Of a stretch of DNA of 34,446 nt, positions 1-34,446 are shown piece after piece. The position numbers were made by a program, and so were the translations under genes. Below the pieces are notes generated by a model. That model made no database searches, was not told the origin of the DNA, and worked only from the letters and a program-made list of their open reading frames with translations. Each line of letters opens with the position of its first letter. Position 1 is the stretch's first letter. Source of the DNA: a virus. The stretch covers positions 1 through 34,446 of IMG/VR virus record IMGVR_UViG_3300036770_001464; one strand, 5' to 3'.

Positions 1-127
1 AGAACCCCCTTGCTGAAGAGTTAAAGGGCGTAGCAGCAGCATTAGAAAATGCAATTGAGCAATTAGATTTTCTCATTCAAGGTATGTTAGTTGAATGCGA
101 TTGTGAGGATGGCTGTTGTAAATAATG
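1..127. repeat. Terminal redundancy, left copy
   Basis: These 127 bases are identical to the last 127 of the window. The repeat begins inside one small gene and ends on the start codon of the next, so it carries no gene boundary of its own. Exactly 127 bases is a common maximum k-mer of short-read assemblers, so this looks like the overlap left by a circular contig rather than a biological terminal repeat. Either way the genome appears complete. Confidence 0.95.
3..125 (+). CDS. 3' part of the join-spanning small gene
   Basis: This is the second half of a 53-residue protein whose start lies at 34283 near the other end of the window; it is read here only because the circle is cut inside the gene. 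The tail of the protein is acidic and cysteine-rich, with a CDCEDGCCK-like end. Its TAA overlaps the ATG of the next gene by one base (TAATG), which implies translational coupling. No function is recognised. Confidence 0.7.
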   Translation, partial: NPLAEELKGVAAALENAIEQLDFLIQGMLVECDCEDGCCK

Positions 128-874
128 TATATGAATGATGCTGGATACGAGGTGCCAGATAATCATATCTTAATAGTGCCACACTCTTTGGATATCCCAG
201 AACATGGTTATTACAATGAAGTTATTTTGCCACTTGCTGGAAAGGTAAAAAGAGATTGGTTCACTGATCATTTTTATTATTGTCTGCCAATTAACATTGG
301 AAATCAATATGGCTTCTTAATTAAGTCATTAGTAGACTTTGATGCAATTTGGCCAGGTGGAGAAACAAATCCAGTTATTACTATTCTTGATAATTCAAAT
401 GACCATAAGCAGACAATTAAGAATGGCTTTGGAAGTGGAATCATAACAATTCAAAATAGATTTGCTTTGAAGACACCGCCAGGAATTAATATAATGACAA
501 TACAGCCACCAAATATGTTTATTCCTGGAACAGTGGCTATGACTGGTGTTATTGAAACAGACAACATTCGTAGAGACTTTACATTCAATTTGAAAATAAC
601 TGTTCCTGACTATAAAGTAGAAGTTCGTAAAGGCGATCCATTGGGTGCCTTCATTCCTATTCCTCGCAATTTTGTAGAGAAGTTTGAGGTAGTACCTGCA
701 ATAGATATTTTTGAGCGGGAAGTAGTAGAAAACGACATTCAAGAATCACAAGTACTAAGTAATGAAAGACAGACAGTAGATTTAGTAAAGCCTCATCAAT
801 CTGGAAGAAGATATTTTAGTGGTAAACATTCAGATGGCACTAAATATCCAGAACATCAAAAGAGGGTTCCATGA
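125..874 (+). CDS. DUF6065-like protein
   Basis: This is a 249-residue soluble protein. Its central pattern resembles the uncharacterised DUF6065 family known mainly from environmental phages: LPINIGNQYGF near residue 53, an aromatic/acidic WPGGETN stretch, a GSGIITIQ strand, a KTPPGINI segment, then an ETDNIRRDFTFNLKI strand and KGDPLGAFIPIPR. The family has no assigned biochemical role. The gene starts on a TAATG overlap with the upstream small gene and ends on an ATGA overlap with a glycosyltransferase, so all three should be made from one transcript. The last 60 residues are polar and probably disordered. The family call rests on remembered motifs and was not checked by search; the open reading frame itself is secure. 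Confidence 0.75.
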   Translation: MYMNDAGYEVPDNHILIVPHSLDIPEHGYYNEVILPLAGKVKRDWFTDHFYYCLPINIGNQYGFLIKSLVDFDAIWPGGETNPVITILDNSNDHKQTIKNGFGSGIITIQNRFALKTPPGINIMTIQPPNMFIPGTVAMTGVIETDNIRRDFTFNLKITVPDYKVEVRKGDPLGAFIPIPRNFVEKFEVVPAIDIFEREVVENDIQESQVLSNERQTVDLVKPHQSGRRYFSGKHSDGTKYPEHQKRVP

Positions 875-1929
875 GATTTCATCTTATAGCATTACCACAT
901 ACACAAGTAACTAAAGCATTCAGTACATGTGCCTACACAGAGAAGACTCTTGAATTTGCTAACATGATGACTTCCCTTGGTCATGAGGTTTATTTATATG
1001 GGTCTGGAGATAAGACAGAAGCAAATGCAACAGAATTTATTTCATGCCTGCCAGAACAAGACAGAATTGAAGCGGTAGGTGATAGACACTACACATCTGC
1101 TTCATTTGATAATAGTCTTCCTCATTGGCAGATATTTAATCGTAATGCAATTGCTGAAATAGGCAAACGAATTGAACAAAAAGATTTTATCTGTATTATT
1201 GGCGGTTTAGCACAAAAACCAATAGCAGATGCATTTCCATCACATATATCTGTAGAATATGGAATTGGATATTCAGGTATATTTAGCAGATTTAAAGTAT
1301 TTGAATCACATACATGGAGATCAGCAGTTTCTGCACAAAATAAAAATGCTGCTTCCATTGATATTAATTTCTATGACACTGTAATTAATGGTTATTTTAA
1401 TCCTGCCAGTTTTTCATACAAGAAATCTGACAGAAAATATTATCTTTATATGGGTAGAATGACACAACGCAAAGGTGTGGACATAGCCAGCCAAGCCTGT
1501 GAAAGATTAGGCGTTGAATTAATCATGGCTGGATCTGGTGATTACATCCCTAAATATGGAACCTACATAGGCGAAGTAAAGGCTGATGACAGGGCAGACC
1601 TATTTAGAGGAGCCATAGCCACCTTTACTCCTACGATTTATCAGGAACCCTTCTGTAATGTCCATATTCAGTCTATGGCGGTAGGAACACCTGTTTTGAC
1701 TACGGATCATGGAATCTTCGTAGAAACCGTCCAGAATGGCTTTAATGGCTTTAGAGGGCATATTCTGAGGGACTTCACAAAAGCGGCGGAAGATGTAAAA
1801 AGCCTGGATCATAAAGCAATAGCCATAGATACATATAATAAATACTCCACAGATACAATTAAATATAAATATGATGCATATTTCCAAAGATTATTAACAT
1901 TATTTGGAGATGGCTGGTACTCAGTTTGA
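871..1929 (+). CDS. Glycosyltransferase family 4-like protein
   Basis: This 352-residue GT-B fold protein should transfer a sugar from a nucleotide-sugar donor to an unknown acceptor, such as virion protein, host surface glycan or modified DNA. The C-terminal donor domain starts near residue 189 with YLYMGRMTQRKGVD, followed by the LIMAGSGD strand and the donor motif EPFCNVHIQSMA. The usual EX7E motif is altered: E259 is present, but the second acidic position (267) is glutamine. The N-terminal half carries a typical GT4 opening, with ANMMTSLGHEVYLYG. The gene overlaps the upstream DUF6065-like gene by four bases, and its stop codon lies inside the -35 box of the next promoter. The fold call is strong. 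Donor and acceptor are unknown, and the E-to-Q change could alter or weaken activity. Confidence 0.85.
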   Translation: MRFHLIALPHTQVTKAFSTCAYTEKTLEFANMMTSLGHEVYLYGSGDKTEANATEFISCLPEQDRIEAVGDRHYTSASFDNSLPHWQIFNRNAIAEIGKRIEQKDFICIIGGLAQKPIADAFPSHISVEYGIGYSGIFSRFKVFESHTWRSAVSAQNKNAASIDINFYDTVINGYFNPASFSYKKSDRKYYLYMGRMTQRKGVDIASQACERLGVELIMAGSGDYIPKYGTYIGEVKADDRADLFRGAIATFTPTIYQEPFCNVHIQSMAVGTPVLTTDHGIFVETVQNGFNGFRGHILRDFTKAAEDVKSLDHKAIAIDTYNKYSTDTIKYKYDAYFQRLLTLFGDGWYSV

Positions 1930-5077: not shown

Positions 5078-5611
5078 ATGACAGCAGGTAGGCCGCCAAA
5101 GCCAACGGAATTAAAAAGGCTGCAAGGAAATTTAGGTCACAGAGATTTACCAGACTTAAATAACATTACGCATTTGCCCATGGCAAAAGAAATTCCACCT
5201 GCTCCTGAAATTTTGCAGGAACATGGAAAAAATCTTTGGAACAGAGCGTGGGGCATGGCCATAACTTGGCTGAGTCCTGTTAGTGATATTGATGCAATTT
5301 ACAATGCAGCCACTTTGGCAGATGCATCTGAAGCAGCAAGAAATAAATATATGGCTACTTTGGAAGCCAATGATGGACGAGCATTTGTTGCAATTAATAA
5401 AGCCTACACAGACGCATTAACTTCTTTGGGATTTGATCCCATAAGTAGATCTCGTCTTGGTGTGGCGGAAGTTAGAGCAGCAACTTCAATAGATAAATTA
5501 TTGGAGAGACGAGAAAACCGCAAACGGATTGCAGAATCTGAGGCGGTAATTATAATAGGGGAAGAATCAAATAATGACACAACAGGAAATGACAACACAG
5601 GAGTTTCTTGA
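5078..5611 (+). CDS. terS: Terminase small subunit, P27 family
   Basis: This 177-residue protein should recognise the packaging site and load the large subunit. The opening GRPPKPTELKRLQGNLGHRDLP is the hallmark of the P27-type small terminases (PF05119), with a conserved helical core (LWNRAWGMAITWLSPVSDIDAIYNAATLADAS). The helical C-terminal arm contains LGVAEVRAATSIDKLLERR, followed by an acidic Asn-rich tail expected to be flexible. It begins a packaging operon behind a non-coding gap. Its last 38 bases overlap the start of the S1-domain gene in another frame, so the two should be translationally linked. The family assignment is confident from the N-terminal motif and the neighbour two genes downstream. 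Confidence 0.92.
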   Translation: MTAGRPPKPTELKRLQGNLGHRDLPDLNNITHLPMAKEIPPAPEILQEHGKNLWNRAWGMAITWLSPVSDIDAIYNAATLADASEAARNKYMATLEANDGRAFVAINKAYTDALTSLGFDPISRSRLGVAEVRAATSIDKLLERRENRKRIAESEAVIIIGEESNNDTTGNDNTGVS

Positions 5612-6365
5612 GGCAATAGATGCTTCAATGAAATATTTTACAAAAGGTCAAATAGTATCTGGCACAATTGTTCAAATGGACAATTATGGAGCACTCGTTG
5701 ACATAGGGCATAAGACAGAGGCTTTTATTCCGAAATCGGAAATAACTGCTCGTAAGGATGCCAGTATCAACGATATTATTTCTATTGGCGCAAATGTTGA
5801 GGGTAAGATAATTGGCAGAAATGCTGATGAAGATCAATATATCGTTTCCCTTAAAGAAGGTGAAATGGAAGCCATTTGGAATGACCTTCAAAATAAATAT
5901 GAAATATCCATTCCTGTTATTGGCAAAGTAATTAAAGTTGTCAAAGGCGGACTTATAGTTGATATTGGTGTTAAGGCCTTTTTGCCTGGATCATTAATTG
6001 ATGTAAATAGAGTTACAGATTTTGCAGCATATGTAGGCCATGAATCCGAATTTATTATTAATTCAATTGATAGGGCTAAAGGAAGTGTCGTTCTAAATCG
6101 TCGTGCACTTTTAGAGCAGGCAATTAAAGAAGACAAGATTATTGAATTTGCTAAATTAGCAGTAGGCCAAATACATAAGGGTAAAGTATCAGGTACTGCT
6201 GATTATGGCGTATTTGTTGAAATTGGAATGCTTGCAGGATTGATTCATAAAACACAAATGGGTGAACTCACACCTGAATCATTTACACTGGCTCAGGAAG
6301 TAGAAGTTGAAATTATTGAAATTGACTTTGAAAAGAGCAGGTTGTCGTTAGCATTTAGAGGTTAA
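5574..6365 (+). CDS. Three-repeat S1-domain RNA-binding protein
   Basis: This 263-residue protein is built of three S1 (OB-fold) repeats, like a shortened ribosomal protein bS1. Repeat 1 is about residues 20-95 (GQIVSGTIVQMDNYGALVDI ... EAFIPKSE). Repeat 2 is about 105-180 (IPVIGKVIKVVKGGLIVDI ... AFLPGSLID). Repeat 3 is about 193-262 (GQIHKGKVSGTADYGVFVEI ... AGLIHKTQMGEL), with DFEKSRLSLAFRG closing it. S1 domains bind single-stranded RNA, and bS1 delivers mRNA to the 30S subunit. GGGGAAG (5558-5564) precedes the ATG; a second ATG at 5589 also follows a purine run. The gene sits between the two terminase subunits, an odd place for an RNA-binding protein. It may steer translation towards phage mRNAs; a packaging role cannot be excluded. 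Confidence 0.9.
   Translation: MTQQEMTTQEFLEAIDASMKYFTKGQIVSGTIVQMDNYGALVDIGHKTEAFIPKSEITARKDASINDIISIGANVEGKIIGRNADEDQYIVSLKEGEMEAIWNDLQNKYEISIPVIGKVIKVVKGGLIVDIGVKAFLPGSLIDVNRVTDFAAYVGHESEFIINSIDRAKGSVVLNRRALLEQAIKEDKIIEFAKLAVGQIHKGKVSGTADYGVFVEIGMLAGLIHKTQMGELTPESFTLAQEVEVEIIEIDFEKSRLSLAFRG

Positions 6366-8377: not shown

Positions 8378-8385
<8 letters not shown>
8029..8385 (+). CDS. Ig-like virion or baseplate-type protein
   Basis: This 118-residue all-beta protein resembles N-terminal modules of phage baseplate/tail proteins (BppU-like). Its pattern is typical of that group: [35 protein letters not shown] and [20 protein letters not shown]. Such proteins commonly sit just before fibre genes and probably attach or decorate fibres. 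It overlaps the giant fibre gene by eight bases, so the two are made together. There are no enzymatic motifs. The structural call is from pattern similarity and context. Confidence 0.6.
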
Positions 8386-12700
<4,315 letters not shown>

Positions 12701-24777: not shown

Positions 24778-25497
24778 ATGCCTACAGGCAGTCCAAACGC
24801 TGGTTATCTTACCTTTAACACAGGTGATGTATTAACCGCAGCACAGGTACAATACAACCTGCAGAATCAATCAATAATGTATTTTGCTGATGCTGCAGCG
24901 AGAGATGCTGCCCTAACAGCAGGTATTCGTCAAGAGGGTATGTTTGCCTATCTGGCTGATACAAATACAACAGTATATTATGATGGCACTGCATGGCAGT
25001 CATTTGGTACTGGAGATGTAACAGGCCTCACAGCAGGTACTGGCATTGAAATTACCAATGCCTCTGGTCCTGTTCCAACTATTGCAATAGCAGATAATCC
25101 TGTTTTAACATCACCAAAAGAGACAGTTGATATTATTGGAGCAGGTGCTACTGGCCCAATTAATCTTGATGTTCTTACATCTGCTGTTCAGGTTCGTACA
25201 GGAAATGCAACAGGAAACTGGACACTAAATGTTAGAGGAGATGGTTCAAATAGCCTTGATTCATTAATGACAACTGGAGAACAAATCTCTGTTGTTTTGG
25301 CACAGCCAAATGGTGGAACAGCATACTATCCAACAGGATTTACAATTGATGGATCTGCACCTGCAAGCATTAAATGGTTAGGTGGAACAGCACCTGCATC
25401 TGGTAATATTAATTCCACAGATGTATATGTTTATACAATTATAAAAACATCAGCAGCAACATTTACAGTTTTTGCATCACAAAATAAGTTTGCTTAA
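24778..25497 (+). CDS. Minor tail or small fibre protein
   Basis: This 239-residue protein is beta-rich and Thr/Gly-rich. The N-terminal third contains a trimeric fibre-like block (GDVLTAAQVQYNLQNQSIMYFADAAARDAALTAG, LADTNTTVYYDGTAWQSF), followed by GDVTGLTAGTGIEITNASGPVPTIAI, a pattern common in phage fibres. The rest looks like a lectin-like sandwich domain (VQVRTGNATGNWTLNVRGDG). A GGAG ribosome binding site (24766-24769) precedes the ATG. Host-surface binding at the tail tip is likely, in addition to the giant fibre at 8378. Confidence 0.72.
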   Translation: MPTGSPNAGYLTFNTGDVLTAAQVQYNLQNQSIMYFADAAARDAALTAGIRQEGMFAYLADTNTTVYYDGTAWQSFGTGDVTGLTAGTGIEITNASGPVPTIAIADNPVLTSPKETVDIIGAGATGPINLDVLTSAVQVRTGNATGNWTLNVRGDGSNSLDSLMTTGEQISVVLAQPNGGTAYYPTGFTIDGSAPASIKWLGGTAPASGNINSTDVYVYTIIKTSAATFTVFASQNKFA

Positions 25498-25516: not shown

Positions 25517-26128
25517 GTGAGTCCATTACAGCGTTTTCCAAGTGGAATAGGCGTACATCTTAGACTTGTGCCGCCACCACCACCGCCGCCGCCGCCTCCA
25601 GTTGCTCCTCCTCCTGTAGCGCCTCCTCCTGTTGCGCCTCCTCCTGTTGCGCCTCCTCCTGTTGCGCCTCCTCCTGTTGCGCCTCCTCCTGTTGCGCCAC
25701 CACCAGTCGCTCCACCACCAGTGGCGCCTCCACCAGTGGCACCTCCACCAGTGGCACCTCCACCAGTGGCACCTCCGCCTGTGGCTCCACCACCAGTAGC
25801 ACCACCACCAGTCGCTCCACCACCAGTGGCACCTCCACCAGTGGCGCCTCCACCAGTGGCACCTCCACCAGTCGCTCCACCACCAGTGGCGCCTCCGCCA
25901 GTGGCTCCGCCTCCAGTAGCACCACCTCCTGTTGCGCCTCCGCCAGTGGCTCCGCCTCCAGTAGCACCACCTCCTGTTGCGCCTCCGCCAGTGGCACCAC
26001 CACCAGTGGCTCCGCCTCCTGTTGCGCCACCGCCAGTAACACCGCCATACACAGGATTCTGTGAAGAGGGATCACCATTCGTTGGCTGCGATGGCGTGTT
26101 TGGTTCCTGTTTCGGTTGCGCTGTCTAA
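25517..26128 (+). CDS. Polyproline PPPVA-repeat protein
   Basis: This 203-residue protein begins with a GTG codon behind AAAGGGAG. After 18 residues it has ten consecutive prolines and then about 29 tandem PPPVA units, ending with a 29-residue tail that contains four cysteines (CEEGSPFVGCDGVFGSCFGC). Such a chain should adopt a stiff polyproline-II rod of several tens of nanometres, comparable with plant extensins. Each PPP would stall ribosomes without EF-P. It follows minor tail genes and is probably a virion spike, spacer or fibre. Codons in the array vary at third positions (CCA/CCT/CCG, GTT/GTG/GTC/GTA), so the protein repeat is kept by selection. A repetitive antisense frame is a shadow. 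Confidence 0.8.
   Translation: MSPLQRFPSGIGVHLRLVPPPPPPPPPPVAPPPVAPPPVAPPPVAPPPVAPPPVAPPPVAPPPVAPPPVAPPPVAPPPVAPPPVAPPPVAPPPVAPPPVAPPPVAPPPVAPPPVAPPPVAPPPVAPPPVAPPPVAPPPVAPPPVAPPPVAPPPVAPPPVAPPPVAPPPVAPPPVTPPYTGFCEEGSPFVGCDGVFGSCFGCAV
25570..26040 (+). repeat. Tandem 15-base repeats encoding PPPVA
   Basis: About 30 units of the form CCN-CCN-CCN-GTN-GCN lie head to tail. Local runs are identical (several GCGCCTCCTCCTGTT units near 25620-25690; GTGGCACCTCCACCA units later), which suggests recent slippage or unequal exchange within an older array. Confidence 0.9.
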
Positions 26129-26138
26129 TAAAACAAAA

Positions 26139-26168
26139 GGGTAGGGTAGTAGAAATGCTACCCTACTC
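26139..26168 (+). terminator. Strong hairpin after tail genes, possible terminator
   Basis: GTAGGGTAG (26141-26149) and CTACCCTAC (26158-26166) form a perfect nine-base stem, extendable by two pairs. There is no T tract after it on the plus strand; the A-rich stretch before it would be the T tract for the opposite strand, although no minus-strand gene is present. It may act as an mRNA-protecting hairpin or a weak terminator. Confidence 0.5.
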
Positions 26169-26174
26169 AATAAA

Positions 26175-26183
26175 TGATACAAT
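26175..26183 (+). promoter_or_regulatory. Extended -10 promoter, weak -35
   Basis: TGATACAAT is an extended -10 box about 20 bases before the gene at 26204. No good -35 box lies 16-18 bases upstream because the hairpin fills that space. It could begin the decoration-enzyme operon. Confidence 0.35.
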
Positions 26184-26203
26184 AGACCTATTAAAGGAGA
26201 ATA

Positions 26204-26650
26204 ATGAAATACGCTTGTGTAGTAAAAAACAATGAAGGTACTTGGGACATTTGGCGTGAAGCCACTTATGGAACAGCACAAAGTCATCCAAATCTTGTTG
26301 TAAAGCAGGACAGACTTGCAAATGCTGTAAACAGTGGATTACCAATTACTGGAATTGTTTTAACAGAACACGAACATGCAGGTATGCCTGGTGCAAAATG
26401 GGACGGAATAAAGTTTTCTGATGGTGATAAATCATCAGTTAAAGAAGATGTTGATTGGAGCACAAGAGAATTATATGGCTATGTTTGTGATGATACGATT
26501 ATTTATGCTTTTATTACAGAAAAAGGTCATCCATATCAATTACAATGTGAAGCAATTTTTGATAGTGAAACAACTATAATTGAAGTTCCAGAAGGTCAAA
26601 CTGCTAAAATTGGTGATGTTTGGGACGGCGAAAATATAATTAGTTCTTAA
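26204..26650 (+). CDS. Unknown protein opening the enzyme cluster
   Basis: This 148-residue soluble protein is of unknown function, with no familiar motif. It is rich in aromatic and acidic residues, with CVVKNNEGTWDIWREATYG, an HEHAGMPGAKWDGIKFSDGDKSS loop and a beta-strand end (TTIIEVPEGQTAKIGDVWDGENI) that resembles the small tail-fibre-associated domains with VPEGQ...GDVWDG seen in other phages. AAAGGAG (26193-26199) is a good ribosome binding site. It precedes the oxygenase genes in the same direction, so it may be the last virion gene or the first member of the modification cluster. Confidence 0.6.
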   Translation: MKYACVVKNNEGTWDIWREATYGTAQSHPNLVVKQDRLANAVNSGLPITGIVLTEHEHAGMPGAKWDGIKFSDGDKSSVKEDVDWSTRELYGYVCDDTIIYAFITEKGHPYQLQCEAIFDSETTIIEVPEGQTAKIGDVWDGENIISS

Positions 26651-26668
26651 ATAATAAAAGGGGTAAGC

Positions 26669-26896
26669 ATGTCTAAATGGGAAGAATGGAAAAAGGCTGT
26701 AGGTGAAACAAGACCTTGGCATCTTTTAGACCACACAAAAATAGTAGATGATCCTAAAATAGCAGAAAATAGATATGAGATTTGTAAAGGATGCCCAGAA
26801 TTTATTAGGGTTACAAAACAATGTAAAAAATGCGGGTGTTTCATGAAGGCTAAAACCCAATTAGAAACAGCGATATGTCCTTTAGGAAAATGGTAA
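26669..26896 (+). CDS. Small zinc-ribbon protein, DUF6171-like
   Basis: This 75-residue protein shows the pattern RPWHLLDHTKIVDDPKIAENRYEICKGCPEFI...KQCKKCGCFMKAKTQLETAICPLGKW. This is a recurring phage and bacterial family (DUF6171-like), with five cysteines arranged as a CxxC...CxxCxC zinc site. In other phages it also lies beside 2-oxoglutarate oxygenase and glycosyltransferase genes, as here. Its function is unknown; the conserved core suggests an accessory factor of the cluster. AAAGGGG (26656-26662) precedes the ATG. The 3' end overlaps an upstream candidate start of the next gene. Confidence 0.75.
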   Translation: MSKWEEWKKAVGETRPWHLLDHTKIVDDPKIAENRYEICKGCPEFIRVTKQCKKCGCFMKAKTQLETAICPLGKW

Positions 26897-26898
26897 TT

Positions 26899-27456
26899 AT
26901 GAAAAATCCAATTATTGTAGACTCAGTATTTGATTTAGTTTCTTTTGATAGGTTAAAAGAGACAATGTTTAATTTGCCAAAAACCAAAGAATCATATGAT
27001 TTTGGCTTTGGAAGATATCATGTGAACCACGAAATATTACAGGAATATACAGAAAAAGCCTTACCTATTGCAAGAGAATATTTTAATAGCAGTACATTAG
27101 TTCCTTCCTATACCCTTTTTTCTCATTATGAGGGTAAGGATGCAAAACTCAAAAAGCACAAAGACGACAATGCCTGTACTTATACCTTAGATATGTGCGT
27201 TTATCAGTCAGAACCATGGGATTTGTGGGTAGATGATAAGGCTTATAGATTACATCCAAATCAAGCCTTAGCATATTATGGCAATGATCAAGAGCACTGG
27301 AGAGAAGAATTCCCTAACCCAGATACTAATTATGTAGCAATGATATTTTTTCATTTTGTTGAACCAGATCATTGGTGGGTTCAAAAAGGTCCAGGGTATT
27401 TAGAAGTTATTCGTGGAAATATTTCAGAGGAAGAATATGTCAAAGCAAATAATTAA
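26899..27456 (+). CDS. 2-oxoglutarate/Fe(II) oxygenase-like protein
   Basis: This 185-residue protein has the double-stranded beta-helix signs of a 2-oxoglutarate/Fe(II) oxygenase: LFSHYEGKDAKLKKHKDDNACTYTLDMCVYQ, with HKD as the HxD metal pair, and a distal histidine in GNDQEHWREEF, followed by the YVAMIFFHF strand. The usual distal arginine or lysine that binds oxoglutarate is not obvious. The start at 26899 was preferred, since it avoids most overlap with the preceding gene; in-frame ATGs at 26875 and 26890 also exist. It is the first of four related enzymes in a row. The substrate is unknown. Confidence 0.72.
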   Translation: MKNPIIVDSVFDLVSFDRLKETMFNLPKTKESYDFGFGRYHVNHEILQEYTEKALPIAREYFNSSTLVPSYTLFSHYEGKDAKLKKHKDDNACTYTLDMCVYQSEPWDLWVDDKAYRLHPNQALAYYGNDQEHWREEFPNPDTNYVAMIFFHFVEPDHWWVQKGPGYLEVIRGNISEEEYVKANN

Positions 27457-27964
27457 AGAATGCAGAGACACAGATAGCGTACATGTATTTCGTAATCTAT
27501 TTACAGATCTTCCAGCATGGGAAGATTTCTTTAGGCATATTAGTGACGGATTAGAAATAAAAGATTATTCTGGCGGTAATTCTGGATCAAAAGAAGTAGT
27601 TGGAAAAGTAAATTTCTGGTCAAGATTAACAATGACCTTAGAACAACCAACATCTGAATATTATAAAAATATTGATATATATAGACAACAGTTAGAAGAA
27701 TTTCAAGATTATAGATTTACTGGTAGTTTTTGTGCAGTAAGTATAACAACTAACGAGCCTACAACTGGAAAACACAATGATCCAGTAGATGTATTTTATC
27801 TACAGTGCATCGGAAATGTTAAATGGAATATCTATAAAGATTCTGTAGAAGAATATATATTAGAACCAGGAGATGTTATCTATGTACCTGCTGGAGTTAT
27901 GCATGAGGTCTTTTCTTTAAGCCCTCGTGCTTCTATATCTTTCATGTTTTCAAAAGGGGAATAA
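27437..27964 (+). CDS. Cupin/JmjC-like oxygenase
   Basis: This 175-residue protein has a cupin barrel. The motif TGKHNDPVDVFYLQCIGNVKWNIY supplies an HND (HxD-type) metal pair, and YILEPGDVIYVPAGVMHEVFSLSPRASISFMF gives the second cupin motif with the distal His. This is the layout of JmjC/asparaginyl-hydroxylase-like and small cupin oxygenases. The ATG at 27437 was chosen because of GAGGAAG just upstream; it overlaps the previous gene by 20 bases. An earlier in-frame ATG at 27413 is less well placed. It is probably an Fe(II)-dependent hydroxylase acting with its neighbours; substrate unknown. Confidence 0.72.
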   Translation: MSKQIIKECRDTDSVHVFRNLFTDLPAWEDFFRHISDGLEIKDYSGGNSGSKEVVGKVNFWSRLTMTLEQPTSEYYKNIDIYRQQLEEFQDYRFTGSFCAVSITTNEPTTGKHNDPVDVFYLQCIGNVKWNIYKDSVEEYILEPGDVIYVPAGVMHEVFSLSPRASISFMFSKGE

Positions 27965-28554
27965 TGATAAAACAAATACTTGCACCAGGAATTATCTTGT
28001 ACAAAACTGATAAAGACCAGGTTAAGAATATAAAGAATGCCATAGAAAAGACCATTGAAGGCAAATGGAGACAGGCTGGCGTAGTAAATACAGATACATA
28101 TGATGGTGAATTAAATACTACCTCAAGAAAATGCTATGACTATGCAATTGATCAGGGAATGACTGCAGAAGAAGTTAATCTACTTAATTTGACAGATGCA
28201 TGGATTAACCCCACAATTGAAGATTTTAGAGCAGAGTATCAAGCAGAGAATATTATTCGTGGTCCATATATTTATCTTAAATATGAAAACAGTGATAAGT
28301 TTGATTGGCACATAGATGATGGCGGAAAGTATCCAAGAACTGTGTCAGTATCCGCATATCTGAATGACGATTATGAAGGCGGAGAAATAGAATTTAAACA
28401 CTACAACATTAGCCATAAACCATCTGCTGGTGACATTATTGTTTTTGGAAGTTCTTTTACTTATATGCATAGGGTAAAGCCAGTTATTTCTGGCATAAGG
28501 TATGCAGTAGTAAATTGGTATAGATATTCAACTTACCCATGGGTGATTCAATGA
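27964..28554 (+). CDS. Prolyl-4-hydroxylase-like oxygenase 1
   Basis: This 196-residue 2-oxoglutarate/Fe(II) dioxygenase resembles the prolyl 4-hydroxylase superfamily. The metal pair is in FDWHIDDGGKYPRTVSVSAYLNDDYEGGEIEF (HID). The product-side core is PSAGDIIVFGSSFTYMHRVKPVISGIRYAVVNWYR, with the distal His and an Arg that should hold the oxoglutarate carboxylate. It starts on a TAATG overlap with the previous gene and ends with ATGA into the dehydrogenase. The family hydroxylates proline, lysine, nucleic-acid bases or small molecules; the nearby polyproline and collagen-like proteins make virion proline an attractive substrate, but this is inferred. Confidence 0.85.
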   Translation: MIKQILAPGIILYKTDKDQVKNIKNAIEKTIEGKWRQAGVVNTDTYDGELNTTSRKCYDYAIDQGMTAEEVNLLNLTDAWINPTIEDFRAEYQAENIIRGPYIYLKYENSDKFDWHIDDGGKYPRTVSVSAYLNDDYEGGEIEFKHYNISHKPSAGDIIVFGSSFTYMHRVKPVISGIRYAVVNWYRYSTYPWVIQ

Positions 28555-29831
28555 ACATAGGATTTATTGGGTTAGGAAAACTTGGACTCCCTTGCGCTGC
28601 AGCAATGAGCGTAAAAACAGGAAAAACAATTTATGGATACGATGTTAATCCTAACATACAAAAATATATTGATGACAGAAAAACTCCATACATTGAGGGG
28701 CAATTAGAAGAATACTTATCAAATGCTGACTTTAGTATTAAAGAGTCTATAGATGGTGTTTTAGATAATGCTGACATTGTTTTTGTGGCAGTTCCTACGC
28801 CTCACATAGAAAGATTTGAAGGCAATTGCCCTATGCCAGATGATCGTGCAGACTTTGATTATAATTATTTAAAAGATGTAGTAAAGAAAATACAAATATA
28901 TTTGGAAAATAACAAAGATAAAAATCTTGACATTGTAATTATTTCTACAGTATTGCCAGGAACAATAAGATCTCAAATATTACCGCTTTTGACAATGAGA
29001 GAGGGAGTAAATTTATTCTACAATCCCTACTTTATTGCTATGGGAACAACAATTCATGACTTTTTAAATCCTGAGTTTATTTTGATTGGCAGAGTGTCAG
29101 AAGATTCTGAGCGTTTAGTTTCTATATATAAGAGTTTCTTATCTTGCCCAATTGTAGAGATTACTTTAGAATCAGCAGAATTAACCAAGGTGGCATACAA
29201 CACATTTATTGGAATGAAGATTGTTTTTGCTAACACCCTCGCAGAAATAACAGAAAAAATAGGTGGGCATGTTGACGAAGTTACTAACACCTTATCTCTT
29301 GGTAGCAATAGAATTATCTCTAATAGATATATGAAGGCTGGAATGGGAGATGGCGGTGGCTGTCACCCAAGAGATCAAATAGCCATGTCTTGGTTAGCAC
29401 AAAAACTTGACCTATCCTTTGACATATTTGAAATGATTGCAAAGGCAAGAGATGAACAAAGTTTATATTTTGCAAAACTATTAAAAAAATATCAAGAAGA
29501 AAGACGCCAAAAGGTAATAATTTTAGGTAACTCTTACAAAAAGAATGTTGGAATAACTGTAGGAAGTCCATCAATTTTATTGCAGCATTATCTAAAAGAA
29601 TTAGATGTAGATTTTATAGCATTTGATCCATTGCAAAAAGAAGAAGACCTTATTTGTGATGGTCCAAGTATATTCTTTGTTGCAACACCGCATGATGTTT
29701 TTCAAACATTGTCATTACCTGAAGAATCTATAGTTATAGATCCATGGGCAAATGGAAATAATCCGTCAGTAAGCAGGCAGTACCTTGTTTGGTATAAAGG
29801 AATAGGAAGACCTGTAGAGATAGTCCTATGA
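28551..29831 (+). CDS. UDP-glucose/GDP-mannose dehydrogenase family protein
   Basis: This 426-residue protein belongs to the family that oxidises UDP-glucose, GDP-mannose or UDP-N-acetyl sugars to uronic acids with NAD. The N-terminal NAD site is IGFIGLGKLGLPCAAAM. ADIVFVAVPTPH follows in the substrate loop. ESAELTKVAYNTFIGMKIVFANTLAEI carries the conserved Lys and Asn, and GMGDGGGCHPRDQIA contains the catalytic cysteine. A C-terminal Rossmann domain (KVIILGNSYKKNVGITVGSPS) ends it. The ATG at 28551 overlaps the upstream stop as ATGA and starts at the usual position; an upstream ATG at 28539 would lie inside the previous gene. It likely supplies an activated sugar for a phage glycosyltransferase. 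Confidence 0.88.
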   Translation: MNIGFIGLGKLGLPCAAAMSVKTGKTIYGYDVNPNIQKYIDDRKTPYIEGQLEEYLSNADFSIKESIDGVLDNADIVFVAVPTPHIERFEGNCPMPDDRADFDYNYLKDVVKKIQIYLENNKDKNLDIVIISTVLPGTIRSQILPLLTMREGVNLFYNPYFIAMGTTIHDFLNPEFILIGRVSEDSERLVSIYKSFLSCPIVEITLESAELTKVAYNTFIGMKIVFANTLAEITEKIGGHVDEVTNTLSLGSNRIISNRYMKAGMGDGGGCHPRDQIAMSWLAQKLDLSFDIFEMIAKARDEQSLYFAKLLKKYQEERRQKVIILGNSYKKNVGITVGSPSILLQHYLKELDVDFIAFDPLQKEEDLICDGPSIFFVATPHDVFQTLSLPEESIVIDPWANGNNPSVSRQYLVWYKGIGRPVEIVL

Positions 29832-30865
29832 GTCTGACATACATTGGTTACTCACAAAATGGCTTAGGAAATCAATTCTGCAGTCTACAGTTATTTGCAG
29901 GATTACTTGGTCAATTTAAAGATACAAATATTAATTTAGTGTGGAAACTGCCATACAATAATATGCAGGATCCGCAGGTAGAAAAACACAATAAAGTAAA
30001 TACTTCAAAGATTGACAAGTATTTAGATAACTCAAAAAACCCAACATTATTTGATTTAGTTAATTTTGATTATGATAACTATACCCTGTATGAGAATGAC
30101 TATTTTATTAAAAATAGATCCAAGGTTAATTTAATTCATGCCCAGAAATCTTATATGAATGTATCTGGTAATACAAAAGATGAAGATGGATTTTCGTGCG
30201 GGAAAACAAAGATAGACCTTAAAGAAGACATGCATAATCTAATTACTATGACCCTTGTTTGGTATAGCAGATTCTTTTATGACAGGTCTGCAGACATAGA
30301 CAATAATCTAAGCAAGTTTAAATTCAAAAAAGAATACTACGAATTGGCTGAAAAGATAGCCAAGCATTATGGGAAATATAACGGCACTCAACTGAGATTA
30401 ATGCCAGACCATCATCAGTACTATAAGTTTACAAAAGATAAATTTGAAGAAGGTCTTAATAAGTTTGATGACAATAGCCTGCCTATTCTTTGCAGCGTAG
30501 ATGATTTTAATCATAATTATATAGTCGGAAATAAAGACAGGCTAATTTTATTAGAAGATATTATTATGCAGGAGTTCTTAGATGATTTCAAGCAATTGGA
30601 GTTTCAGCATAGAATAACAGTTGCCTTGATAAGTGCATTAGTTATGTCAATGGCAGACGATTTTATTGGAACGCCGTTTTCTACTTTTAGCACAATGATC
30701 TATCAACTAAGAAATAACAGGGTAGATGAAAGATGGAAATACTATCCTTCCAATAACCCTCTTTTTAGTTCCTATGATGTAAACACAACGCCATATAGTT
30801 GGTCAAATCTTACAGGAACAGTTTCGTGGGAAAGAGACTGGAAGGAGTCAAAACTAAATGTTTAA
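29828..30865 (+). CDS. Fucosyltransferase-like glycosyltransferase
   Basis: This 345-residue protein shows two features of GT-B fucosyltransferase-like enzymes (GT11/O-fucosyltransferase superfamily): GYSQNGLGNQFCSLQLFAGLLG at the N-terminus, a GLGNQ motif that binds near the acceptor, and VMSMADDFIGTPFSTFSTMIYQLR in the C-terminal domain, where a Ser/Thr/Phe motif contacts GDP-fucose. NGTQLRLMPDHHQYY supplies the central Arg. It overlaps the dehydrogenase by four bases. Acceptors of the family include glycans and protein Ser/Thr. Donor sugar is not provable here; no GDP-fucose pathway genes are in this genome, so it would have to use a host donor. Confidence 0.68.
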   Translation: MSLTYIGYSQNGLGNQFCSLQLFAGLLGQFKDTNINLVWKLPYNNMQDPQVEKHNKVNTSKIDKYLDNSKNPTLFDLVNFDYDNYTLYENDYFIKNRSKVNLIHAQKSYMNVSGNTKDEDGFSCGKTKIDLKEDMHNLITMTLVWYSRFFYDRSADIDNNLSKFKFKKEYYELAEKIAKHYGKYNGTQLRLMPDHHQYYKFTKDKFEEGLNKFDDNSLPILCSVDDFNHNYIVGNKDRLILLEDIIMQEFLDDFKQLEFQHRITVALISALVMSMADDFIGTPFSTFSTMIYQLRNNRVDERWKYYPSNNPLFSSYDVNTTPYSWSNLTGTVSWERDWKESKLNV

Positions 30866-31424
30866 TGCCATAACAAAAGATAATTTTATAAGTGCAGAAA
30901 ATTGCAAATATCTAATAGAAACAGCAATTAAATCAGATTTATGGGAAAGCGGTGGCACAGAATTTTGGTCAAATCGTGTAATTAACTATGAGTTAATGTA
31001 TTCATACGATATAGAAGCAGCAAGAATAATGTTAGACGCAAATATTAGATGTTCTAATGTAATTAAAAATAACTATCATGTGCCTGATATTTATTCAGAT
31101 ACCTTGCAAATTGTTAGGTGGTTTCCAGGAATGGAACAGCCTCCACATGCAGACGATATGACAAATACAGATATCCTTGGCTTTGAGCACAGGGCATTTG
31201 GATCAATAATTTATCTAAATGATGACTACGAAGGCGGTAATACCTATTACCCAAATTACGACATAAGAATTACTCCTAAGTCTGGGACACTGGCTATACA
31301 TCCAGGAGATCCTGAACACCTTCATGGAGTAACAAAGATAGAAGGCGGTATGAGATATACAATCGCTTCTTTCTGGACACCTTTCAAAAACAAAGGCCAT
31401 GAATGGCGCAAGGAGAACAAATGA
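30858..31424 (+). CDS. Prolyl-4-hydroxylase-like oxygenase 2
   Basis: This 188-residue protein is a second prolyl-4-hydroxylase-like dioxygenase. The metal pair is in RWFPGMEQPPHADDMTN (HAD), then RAFGSIIYLNDDYEGGNTYYPNYDIRITPKSG, and the distal His and oxoglutarate-binding Arg are in PEHLHGVTKIEGGMRYTIASFW. The phrase LNDDYEGG is shared with the first copy, so the two are paralogues. AAGGAG (30843-30848) gives a good start, and eight bases overlap the glycosyltransferase gene. Together with the other oxygenases it forms a four-gene modification set around two sugar genes. Substrate unknown. Confidence 0.85.
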   Translation: MFNAITKDNFISAENCKYLIETAIKSDLWESGGTEFWSNRVINYELMYSYDIEAARIMLDANIRCSNVIKNNYHVPDIYSDTLQIVRWFPGMEQPPHADDMTNTDILGFEHRAFGSIIYLNDDYEGGNTYYPNYDIRITPKSGTLAIHPGDPEHLHGVTKIEGGMRYTIASFWTPFKNKGHEWRKENK

Positions 31425-34153: not shown

Positions 34154-34335
34154 ATACCTGGAGTATAATAGAAGGCGATATAGTTTTGTCTTCAGATGAT
34201 GAAGAACAAATGCAATTTGCAAATGCCTGGATTTTAAATCTTGTGCAGCAAATTAGACTACAAGTGATAGAGGAGTTAGAAAATGGGAGGAGCGTCGTAT
34301 CCGATGAACCTGAACAACAAGAACCCCCTTGCTGA
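34150..34335 (+). CDS. Small acidic protein, unknown
   Basis: This is a 61-residue protein (MNTWSIIEGDIVLSSDDEEQ ... LENGRSVVSDEPEQQEPPC) with a helical core (FANAWILNLVQQIRLQVIEEL). GAGGAAG (34138-34144) precedes the ATG. Its last 53 bases overlap, in a different frame, the gene that spans the join. No family is recognised. Confidence 0.55.
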   Translation: MNTWSIIEGDIVLSSDDEEQMQFANAWILNLVQQIRLQVIEELENGRSVVSDEPEQQEPPC

Positions 34336-34444
34336 AGAGTTAAAGGGCGTAGCAGCAGCATTAGAAAATGCAATTGAGCAATTAGATTTTCTCATTCAAG
34401 GTATGTTAGTTGAATGCGATTGTGAGGATGGCTGTTGTAAATAA
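34283..34444 (+). CDS. Join-spanning small acidic Cys-rich protein
   Basis: This 53-residue protein begins MGGASYPMNLNNKNPLAEEL and continues as a helix (ALENAIEQLDFLIQGMLVE) to a CDCEDGCCK end. AGGAG (34271-34275) lies eight bases before the ATG. It overlaps the previous gene by 53 bases in another frame. Its stop overlaps the DUF6065-like gene start, visible in the left copy at 123-127. The four cysteines at the end could bind metal. Confidence 0.6.
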   Translation: MGGASYPMNLNNKNPLAEELKGVAAALENAIEQLDFLIQGMLVECDCEDGCCK

Positions 34445-34446
34445 TG
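34320..34446. repeat. Terminal redundancy, right copy
   Basis: Identical to bases 1-127. See the left copy: the window is a closed circle of about 34,319 bp with one k-mer-sized overlap. Confidence 0.95.

Follow-up and report, generated by a model that had tools for sequence, protein, structure and literature searches.

Several known systems couple the hydroxylation of a protein to its glycosylation. In Dictyostelium and Toxoplasma, Skp1 is modified by a cytoplasmic 2-oxoglutarate (2OG)-dependent prolyl hydroxylase and then by a hydroxyproline glycosyltransferase (PMC3515798, PMC11570480), and the collagen of mimivirus is served by a virus-encoded lysyl hydroxylase and glucosyltransferase (PMC9546862). 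The prolyl 4-hydroxylase (P4H) of chlorovirus PBCV-1 acts on proline-containing peptides, its role in replication being unknown according to a review (PMC7019647). For phages, virion glycosylation by actinophage glycosyltransferases was suggested for Maravista (PMC11256854), pelagimyophage glycosyltransferases have been read as O-antigen modifiers (PMC7029224), thousands of phage 2OG oxygenases were found by structure-based annotation to resemble EGLN3, with no substrate named (PMC12774648), and according to a 2012 study of collagens carried by phages, the prolyl hydroxylases that collagen requires are missing from bacteria and viruses (PMC3368898). We analysed a freshwater phage record of 34,446 bases (IMGVR_UViG_3300036770_001464; the whole stretch is called the window below), in which genes for four oxygenases, a sugar dehydrogenase and a putative glycosyltransferase follow a gene for a proline-repeat protein. 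We propose that these genes probably form a substrate-plus-modifiers module, in which prolines of a virion fibre would be hydroxylated by the 2OG oxygenases and then glycosylated, and in which the threonine repeats of sister phages would be glycosylated directly. In the open-access literature we found no earlier report of a phage hydroxylation–glycosylation module matched to proline repeats.

The initial annotation had listed the oxygenase/cupin-like genes, the dehydrogenase, the fucosyltransferase-like gene and the PPPVA gene, and all of them were found where it had placed them on the + strand:

24778..25497, + strand: tail-region protein, the anchor gene fib239 (phrog_5906, E 2.5e-26)
25517..26128, + strand: proline-repeat protein, the proposed substrate (30 x PPPV(A/T))
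26875..27456, + strand: OxA, with a 2OG-Fe(II)-type oxygenase fold (predicted structure, iron triad)
27413..27964, + strand: OxB, a JmjC_2/cupin oxygenase (JmjC_2, 48.8 bits versus a cut-off of 22)
27964..28554, + strand: OxC, a P4H-type 2OG-Fe(II) oxygenase (PF13640, 55.8 bits versus a cut-off of 27)
28539..29831, + strand: nucleotide-sugar (UDP-glucose-type) 6-dehydrogenase (TIGR03026, 207.6 versus 189.8 bits)
29828..30865, + strand: OFucT, a distant relative of protein O-fucosyltransferases (PF10250, below cut-off)
30858..31424, + strand: OxD, a second P4H-type 2OG-Fe(II) oxygenase (PF13640, 32.3 bits versus a cut-off of 27)

Relatives of the locus were gathered by a scan for the N-terminal peptide motif of the repeat protein, which gave 52 stretches, and by a scan for the upstream tail gene, from which 80 loci were kept. 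In those clade members that were examined, the repeat gene was immediately preceded by the fib239 gene, and in almost all relatives reaching far enough the tail gene was directly followed by a gene for a similarly built repeat protein, with a conserved N-terminus, a low-complexity array and an exchangeable Cys-rich tail. The arrays were of the types PPPVA, PPVT, PPVV, PTPVA, alternating P-V/A/I, PPPIIAT, TPTP, nearly pure P, and TTTT with A and occasional P. Downstream genes were compared in the 43 distinct loci whose downstream sequence was about 0.9 kb or longer, classed as proline-rich (18–50% P over the whole protein) or threonine-rich (7–13% P). At least one downstream oxygenase was present in 38/38 proline-rich loci and in 0/5 threonine-rich loci. 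Searches of whole records, made with the OxA profile and the curated model for PF13640, were positive for 12/12 proline-rich records and for 0/7 threonine-rich ones. The threonine-rich loci kept the DUF6171 gene and a radical SAM/SPASM protein and, on long enough contigs, a PF11397 glycosyltransferase, often together with an NAD-dependent epimerase.

Oxygenases were kept with TPTP arrays, which consist essentially of P and T (3/3), and with the nearly pure P array (L188), whereas T/A arrays with 15% P had none. Since proline is the residue shared by the arrays that keep oxygenases, this points to proline as the probable oxygenase target. The threonine-rich versions are mucin-like (TTTTAAP and similar; L088, L174, L181, L210/L241, L247, L265 and L266), and their longer contigs carry PF11397 and DUF7164 proteins (putative glycosyltransferases) without an oxygenase; a further scan for threonine-rich arrays found nothing beyond the seven known records. 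The radical SAM/SPASM protein is common in proline- and threonine-rich modules (L181, L210, L247, L281 and others) and possibly carries out a further peptide modification of the repeat.

A glycosyltransferase was present in the module at 31 of the 34 loci having at least 4 kb downstream, and its type varied with the repeat class. PPVV arrays were accompanied by GT61 (7/8), PTPVA arrays by GT254 (3/3), alternating P-x arrays by OFucT (8/8), and TPTP and TTTT arrays by PF11397; the PPVA, PPVT and PPPIIAT classes had mixed types. The glycosyltransferase named GTgnt belongs to PF11397, which we take to be the family of the Skp1 hydroxyproline-GlcNAc transferase. Sequence searches of the Protein Data Bank (PDB) gave no convincing match for GT254 (best E 0.4) and none for GTgnt. 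The alternating-proline arrays (L193, L204, L205, L212, L283 and L286) occurred with OFucT, an SGNH-like protein and a NodU-type carbamoyltransferase, so O-carbamoylated or acylated sugars are possible in these modules.

These counts bear on an alternative that we consider unlikely but the strongest of the rivals, namely that the oxygenases do modify the proline repeat, for stiffness, solubility or cross-linking, and that the sugars are not placed on hydroxyproline, the glycosyltransferases having Thr/Ser, the Cys-rich tip or other virion proteins as their targets instead. It would accommodate the three loci that have oxygenases and no module glycosyltransferase, the association of GTgnt with Thr-containing repeats (TPTP, TTTT and PPPIIAT), and the frequent presence of the radical SAM/SPASM protein as well. 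However, glycosyltransferase type also tracks classes without core Thr or Ser, as in the pairing of PPVV with GT61 and of alternating P-V/A/I with OFucT.

OxA relatives were also found outside this clade. The OxA family scan gave 40 distinct loci, on contigs of up to 136 kb, at which no anchor gene was detected; 17 of them extended at least 2.5 kb upstream and were informative. A low-complexity proline-rich array lay 1–3.5 kb upstream of OxA in 17/17 of these and downstream in 0. As a control, a proline-rich array was within 5 kb in 0/49 phage loci anchored on UDP-glucose dehydrogenase (UGDH); the phage types of these controls were not matched, so that the contrast, though strong, does not give a rate that can be read as a probability. 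A recurrent gene order was proline-rich protein, DUF6171, OxC, OxA, glycosyltransferase and epimerase. The arrays were fused to differing N-terminal domains, and several of these domains had matches among PHROG families of tail-fibre, minor-tail or virion-structural proteins. Aromatic proline arrays (PPFFPPFFP) stand beside, or are mixed with, PTPVA-type arrays at L312, L340, L341, L346 and L366. The initial annotation had named beforehand the absence of enzyme and proline-rich gene co-occurrence across phages as grounds for refutation; co-occurrence was seen both within the clade (38/38 versus 0/5) and beyond it (17/17 versus 0/49).

What the enzyme set follows was analysed by partial Mantel tests over 40 non-redundant loci, with the C-terminal tail of the repeat protein, the next gene and the upstream gene as controls. 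The enzyme set was correlated with the dipeptide (2-mer) make-up of the repeat (r=0.455, p<=0.0005). Its correlation with the repeat protein's own C-terminal tail was r=0.04 (p=0.22) and with the upstream gene r=−0.08, and it barely followed the next gene (r=0.08, p about 0.05); the tail and the next gene sit between the repeat and the enzymes, and intercorrelate at 0.48. The correlation between repeat and enzymes was still found after the modules were thinned at 90% protein identity (22 loci, r=0.39, p=0.0005), at 80% (12 loci, r=0.42, p=0.003) and at 70% (9 loci, r=0.44, p=0.02). It is the sequence of the repeat that the enzyme set tracks, and not the genes beside it.

It is improbable, in our judgement, that the enzymes serve superinfection exclusion or metabolism by remodelling small molecules or glycans of the host surface, and are unrelated to the repeat protein. 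Phage glycosyltransferases and UGDH beside tail genes are usually read in this way, for example in pelagimyophages (PMC7029224), but this reading predicts neither an enzyme content that tracks the repeat rather than other neighbours, nor the loss of oxygenases with threonine repeats, nor the 17/17 pairing in other phages. We give still less credence to pure linkage, in which the repeat and enzyme genes, lying in a variable late region, are passed on together as a block and have no functional tie. The genes are indeed adjacent and the region recombines often, with 24 repeat-class changes on the anchor-gene tree, but with the repeat controlled for, there is hardly any correlation between the intervening segments and the enzymes, and other phages show the pairing again, there with N-terminal domains of other kinds. 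On the partial Mantel tests, linkage alone was largely rejected.

The repeat gene itself starts with GTG, preceded by the Shine-Dalgarno-like AAAAGGGAG. Its product begins SPLQRFPSGIGVHLR, carries a conserved N-terminal peptide (SPLxRxPSGIGxxLR), and continues with 29 PPPVA units and one PPPVT unit to a short Cys-containing C-terminal tail. The 30 units are written in 18 different DNA spellings, and 76 of the 77 differences from the majority base between units fall at third codon positions and 0 at second positions. Since nearly all of the differences are at third positions, the protein sequence has been kept and the repeat is not chance DNA; judged by this codon pattern, the PPPVA repeat is translated into protein, and selection acts strongly to keep its amino-acid sequence. 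PPP runs generally need elongation factor P for efficient translation. A polyproline shaft with a Cys-rich tip, encoded beside tail genes, suggests a virion fibre. Among the relatives, Cys-rich C-terminal tails of 35–40 residues are shuffled among arrays, and one tail was seen on TTTT, PPVV and PVPV arrays, which suggests that the tail is an exchangeable tip.

The claim that the cluster holds four oxygenases, two of them P4H-like, held up: OxC and OxD both exceed the PF13640 cut-off, and HxD...H sites are invariant in all four enzymes. In the OxC/OxD alignment, the iron triad H116, D118 and H169 and the distal R179 for 2OG are invariant in 29 sequences, and the best solved structures for the profile were those of Bacillus anthracis P4H (PDB 5hv0 and 3itq, E 1.3e-10), with P3H1, LH3, a viral prolyl 4-hydroxylase, a mimivirus-type lysyl hydroxylase (6ax6) and PHD2 among the other matches. 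For OxC alone, the PKHD-type hydroxylase family with PiuC was nearest, followed by P4H. OxA has no Pfam match, and its triad H95/D97...H141 is invariant in 28 aligned relatives. Its AlphaFold model, with a predicted local distance difference test score (pLDDT) of 92.8, has the double-stranded beta-helix of the 2OG-oxygenase fold and aligned to 2OG oxygenases with VIA-align Z scores of 14–16 over 141–174 residues, PiuC/PKHD, PHD2 and P4H being tied with small-molecule oxygenases. The PHROG label 'ferrochelatase' was rejected for OxA on the basis of this fold; on phrog_2954 and phrog_3531 the label is a probable mis-annotation, which also touches cyanophages S-SM1 and S-RIM32.

In OxB, the triad H121/D123...H164 is invariant in the alignment, and its nearest solved relatives include protein hydroxylases of the ribosomal oxygenase (ROX) type. 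The protein (183 residues) stops with the JmjC domain; as the ROX C-terminal dimerisation and winged-helix domains are absent, OxB was not classed as a ROX. It was found mainly with units having V or I followed by A or T (PPVA, PTPVA, PPVT and PPPIIAT), and not with PPVV or TPTP (the window, L173, L186, L190, L206, L238, L245, L267 and L268), and it may act on a non-proline residue. The least credible rival is that the oxygenases modify phage DNA bases in a TET/JBP-like manner and that DNA also receives the sugars: a Tet_JBP match of OxD falls below the threshold (12.4 versus 34.9 bits), but the profile relatives in the PDB are mostly protein hydroxylases, and the correlation with a protein repeat would be left unexplained.

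The gene annotated earlier as a UDP-sugar dehydrogenase passes TIGR03026 as a nucleotide-sugar dehydrogenase and has the catalytic Cys motif GGGC (GGGCHPRD); it scores far under the cut-offs of substrate-specific equivalog models. For the fucosyltransferase-like gene, the distant relation to PF10250 stood, as 10 of the 13 OFucT family members matched the model (best E 2.3e-5) and the family matched the POFUT2 profile at E 0.0015, but the window's own protein does not reach the Pfam cut-off.

Several observations weigh against a module that hydroxylates and glycosylates its own fibre. OFucT scores 17.1 bits against PF10250, for which the cut-off is 31.5, and its predicted structure has a pLDDT of only 48, so this model was not used. 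OxA is as near to PiuC/PKHD and small-molecule oxygenases as to PHD2, and lacks the conserved Arg or Lys about 10 residues after the second His, the usual 2OG-binding position, having R143 at +2 instead. Enzymes with P4H-like folds have free amino acids and small molecules among their substrates as well. Oxygenases without a recognised glycosyltransferase in the module occur at 3/34 loci, and the repeat gene was assigned to the virion from its position and from the fusions in other phages. Four changes of the threonine-rich state, and likewise four of oxygenase absence, were placed on the anchor-gene tree. However, the threonine-rich modules are mutually related, with 80% thinning leaving one, and the support for these branches is mostly weak, so independent oxygenase losses number 1 to 4, not 5; tree-based independent-pairs tests reached no significance, as there were too few well-supported branches.

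The remaining genes of the cluster, and two that lie across the circular join, are as follows:

26204..26650, + strand: small protein, the first gene after the repeat protein, which hardly co-varies with the enzymes
26669..26896, + strand: DUF6171, Cys-rich and zinc-ribbon-like (PF19668, 28.5 bits versus a cut-off of 27)
125..874, + strand: DUF6065, in the window after the lysis genes
871..1929, + strand: GT-B glycosyltransferase, a second site after the lysis genes (PF00534, 57.5 bits versus a cut-off of 26.4)

No gene of the module is more constant than DUF6171 (CxxCGCF), which occurs in every repeat class, proline- and threonine-rich alike. An exact 127-bp direct repeat is present at the two ends of the window (1–127 and 34320–34446), and thus the record is a complete circular genome of ~34.3 kb. 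Because of this circularity, the DUF6065 and glycosyltransferase genes also lie downstream of the cluster; in L001, L002 and L098 the DUF6065 gene directly follows the OxD gene. On the + strand, the gene order is terminase (6367), collagen-like fibre (8378–12700), portal-like gene (12715), capsid region, tape measure (20554), tail proteins (23486 and 24778), enzyme cluster and lysis-type genes, the structural genes having been named by eye apart from those searched. The terminase is 46% identical to that of Pontimonas phage phiPsal1, with Streptomyces phages next closest, and these relatives hint at an actinobacterial host. A scan of bacterial genomes for the anchor tail gene found no relative, and the annotated phages include no close DNA relative of this genome. 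The collagen-like (GPT/GAT) fibre, between the terminase and portal genes, has YadA-like repeats; a collagen-like stretch was present in 72 of 80 terminase-anchored relatives, and none of the threonine-rich records examined was seen to extend as far as this gene, so that the comparison speaks neither for nor against this fibre as a further substrate. Just upstream of the terminase (5574–6365), a protein resembles, by eye, several tandem S1 domains (ribosomal protein S1-like).

Taken together, the co-variation comparisons support the suggestion of the initial annotation that the phage hydroxylates and glycosylates its own proline-rich protein, the chemistry being read from enzyme families and co-variation. 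We infer that proline would be the target, that the sugars would be on hydroxyproline, and that the repeat protein would be displayed on the virion. In the proposed mechanism, the repeat protein would be a virion fibre or stalk with a short anchoring N-terminus, a polyproline-like shaft and a Cys-rich tip. OxA, OxC and OxD, together with the JmjC-type OxB, would hydroxylate shaft residues, mainly proline, and the glycosyltransferases (OFucT, and perhaps that at 871–1929) would put sugars on the new hydroxyls, fed in part by the nucleotide-sugar dehydrogenase. The mostly-threonine shafts of sister phages already carry hydroxyls, so that glycosyltransferases would be kept and no oxygenase would be needed. 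The sugars could serve as a shield for the fibre, maintain its solubility or help in attachment. Aquatic phages commonly carry 2OG-Fe(II) oxygenases as accessory genes that lack an explanation, and one group of them now has a concrete candidate substrate, with threonine repeats as a natural control. If the proposal is true, hydroxyproline-type glycosylation, usually thought eukaryotic, is present in phages of bacteria, the substrate rules of hydroxylases and glycosyltransferases could be read from many paired repeats, and the enzymes offer a toolkit for hydroxylated, glycosylated polyproline fibres made in bacteria.

Mycobacteriophage virions are reportedly glycosylated by phage glycosyltransferases. 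Actinophage virion glycosylation resembles the proposed module in that phage glycosyltransferases would act on their own particle, and the host here is possibly actinobacterial too; we know of no oxygenase step or repeat-matched enzyme swapping in it. The P4H of B. anthracis, the best solved match of the OxC/OxD profile, differs in being a cellular enzyme, with a collagen-like substrate. The Skp1 pathway is similar in that the GTgnt of some related phages also belongs to PF11397, but in Skp1 a single proline of a folded regulator is modified, compared with tens of prolines in a repeat in the phages, and the window itself has no GTgnt. The mimivirus system shares with the proposed module virus-encoded hydroxylation and glycosylation of the virus's own repeat protein, and 6ax6 is among the OxC/OxD profile matches; it concerns collagen lysine in a eukaryotic giant virus, however, and not proline-rich arrays in phages of bacteria. 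For the PBCV-1 P4H, unlike the phage module, no matched substrate module is described in the review (PMC7019647). Plant extensins and other hydroxyproline-rich glycoproteins share low-complexity proline repeats, P4H-type hydroxylases, glycosyltransferases and the proposed logic of hydroxylation followed by glycosylation, and the feature tested here, a low-complexity proline repeat conserved at the protein level, is common to both (76/77 third-position differences). Extensins have Ser-Hyp4, whereas the phages have PPPVA, PPVV or PTPVA, the window repeat being without Ser; the phage system is also phage-encoded in a bacterial host without endoplasmic reticulum or Golgi, uses other glycosyltransferase families and has a chemistry that is so far a predicted one. 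On balance, we lean towards a widespread modular phage system, in which a fast-diversifying, displayed proline-repeat fibre has its enzyme kit swapped to match, as a counterpart of plant extensins and animal mucins.

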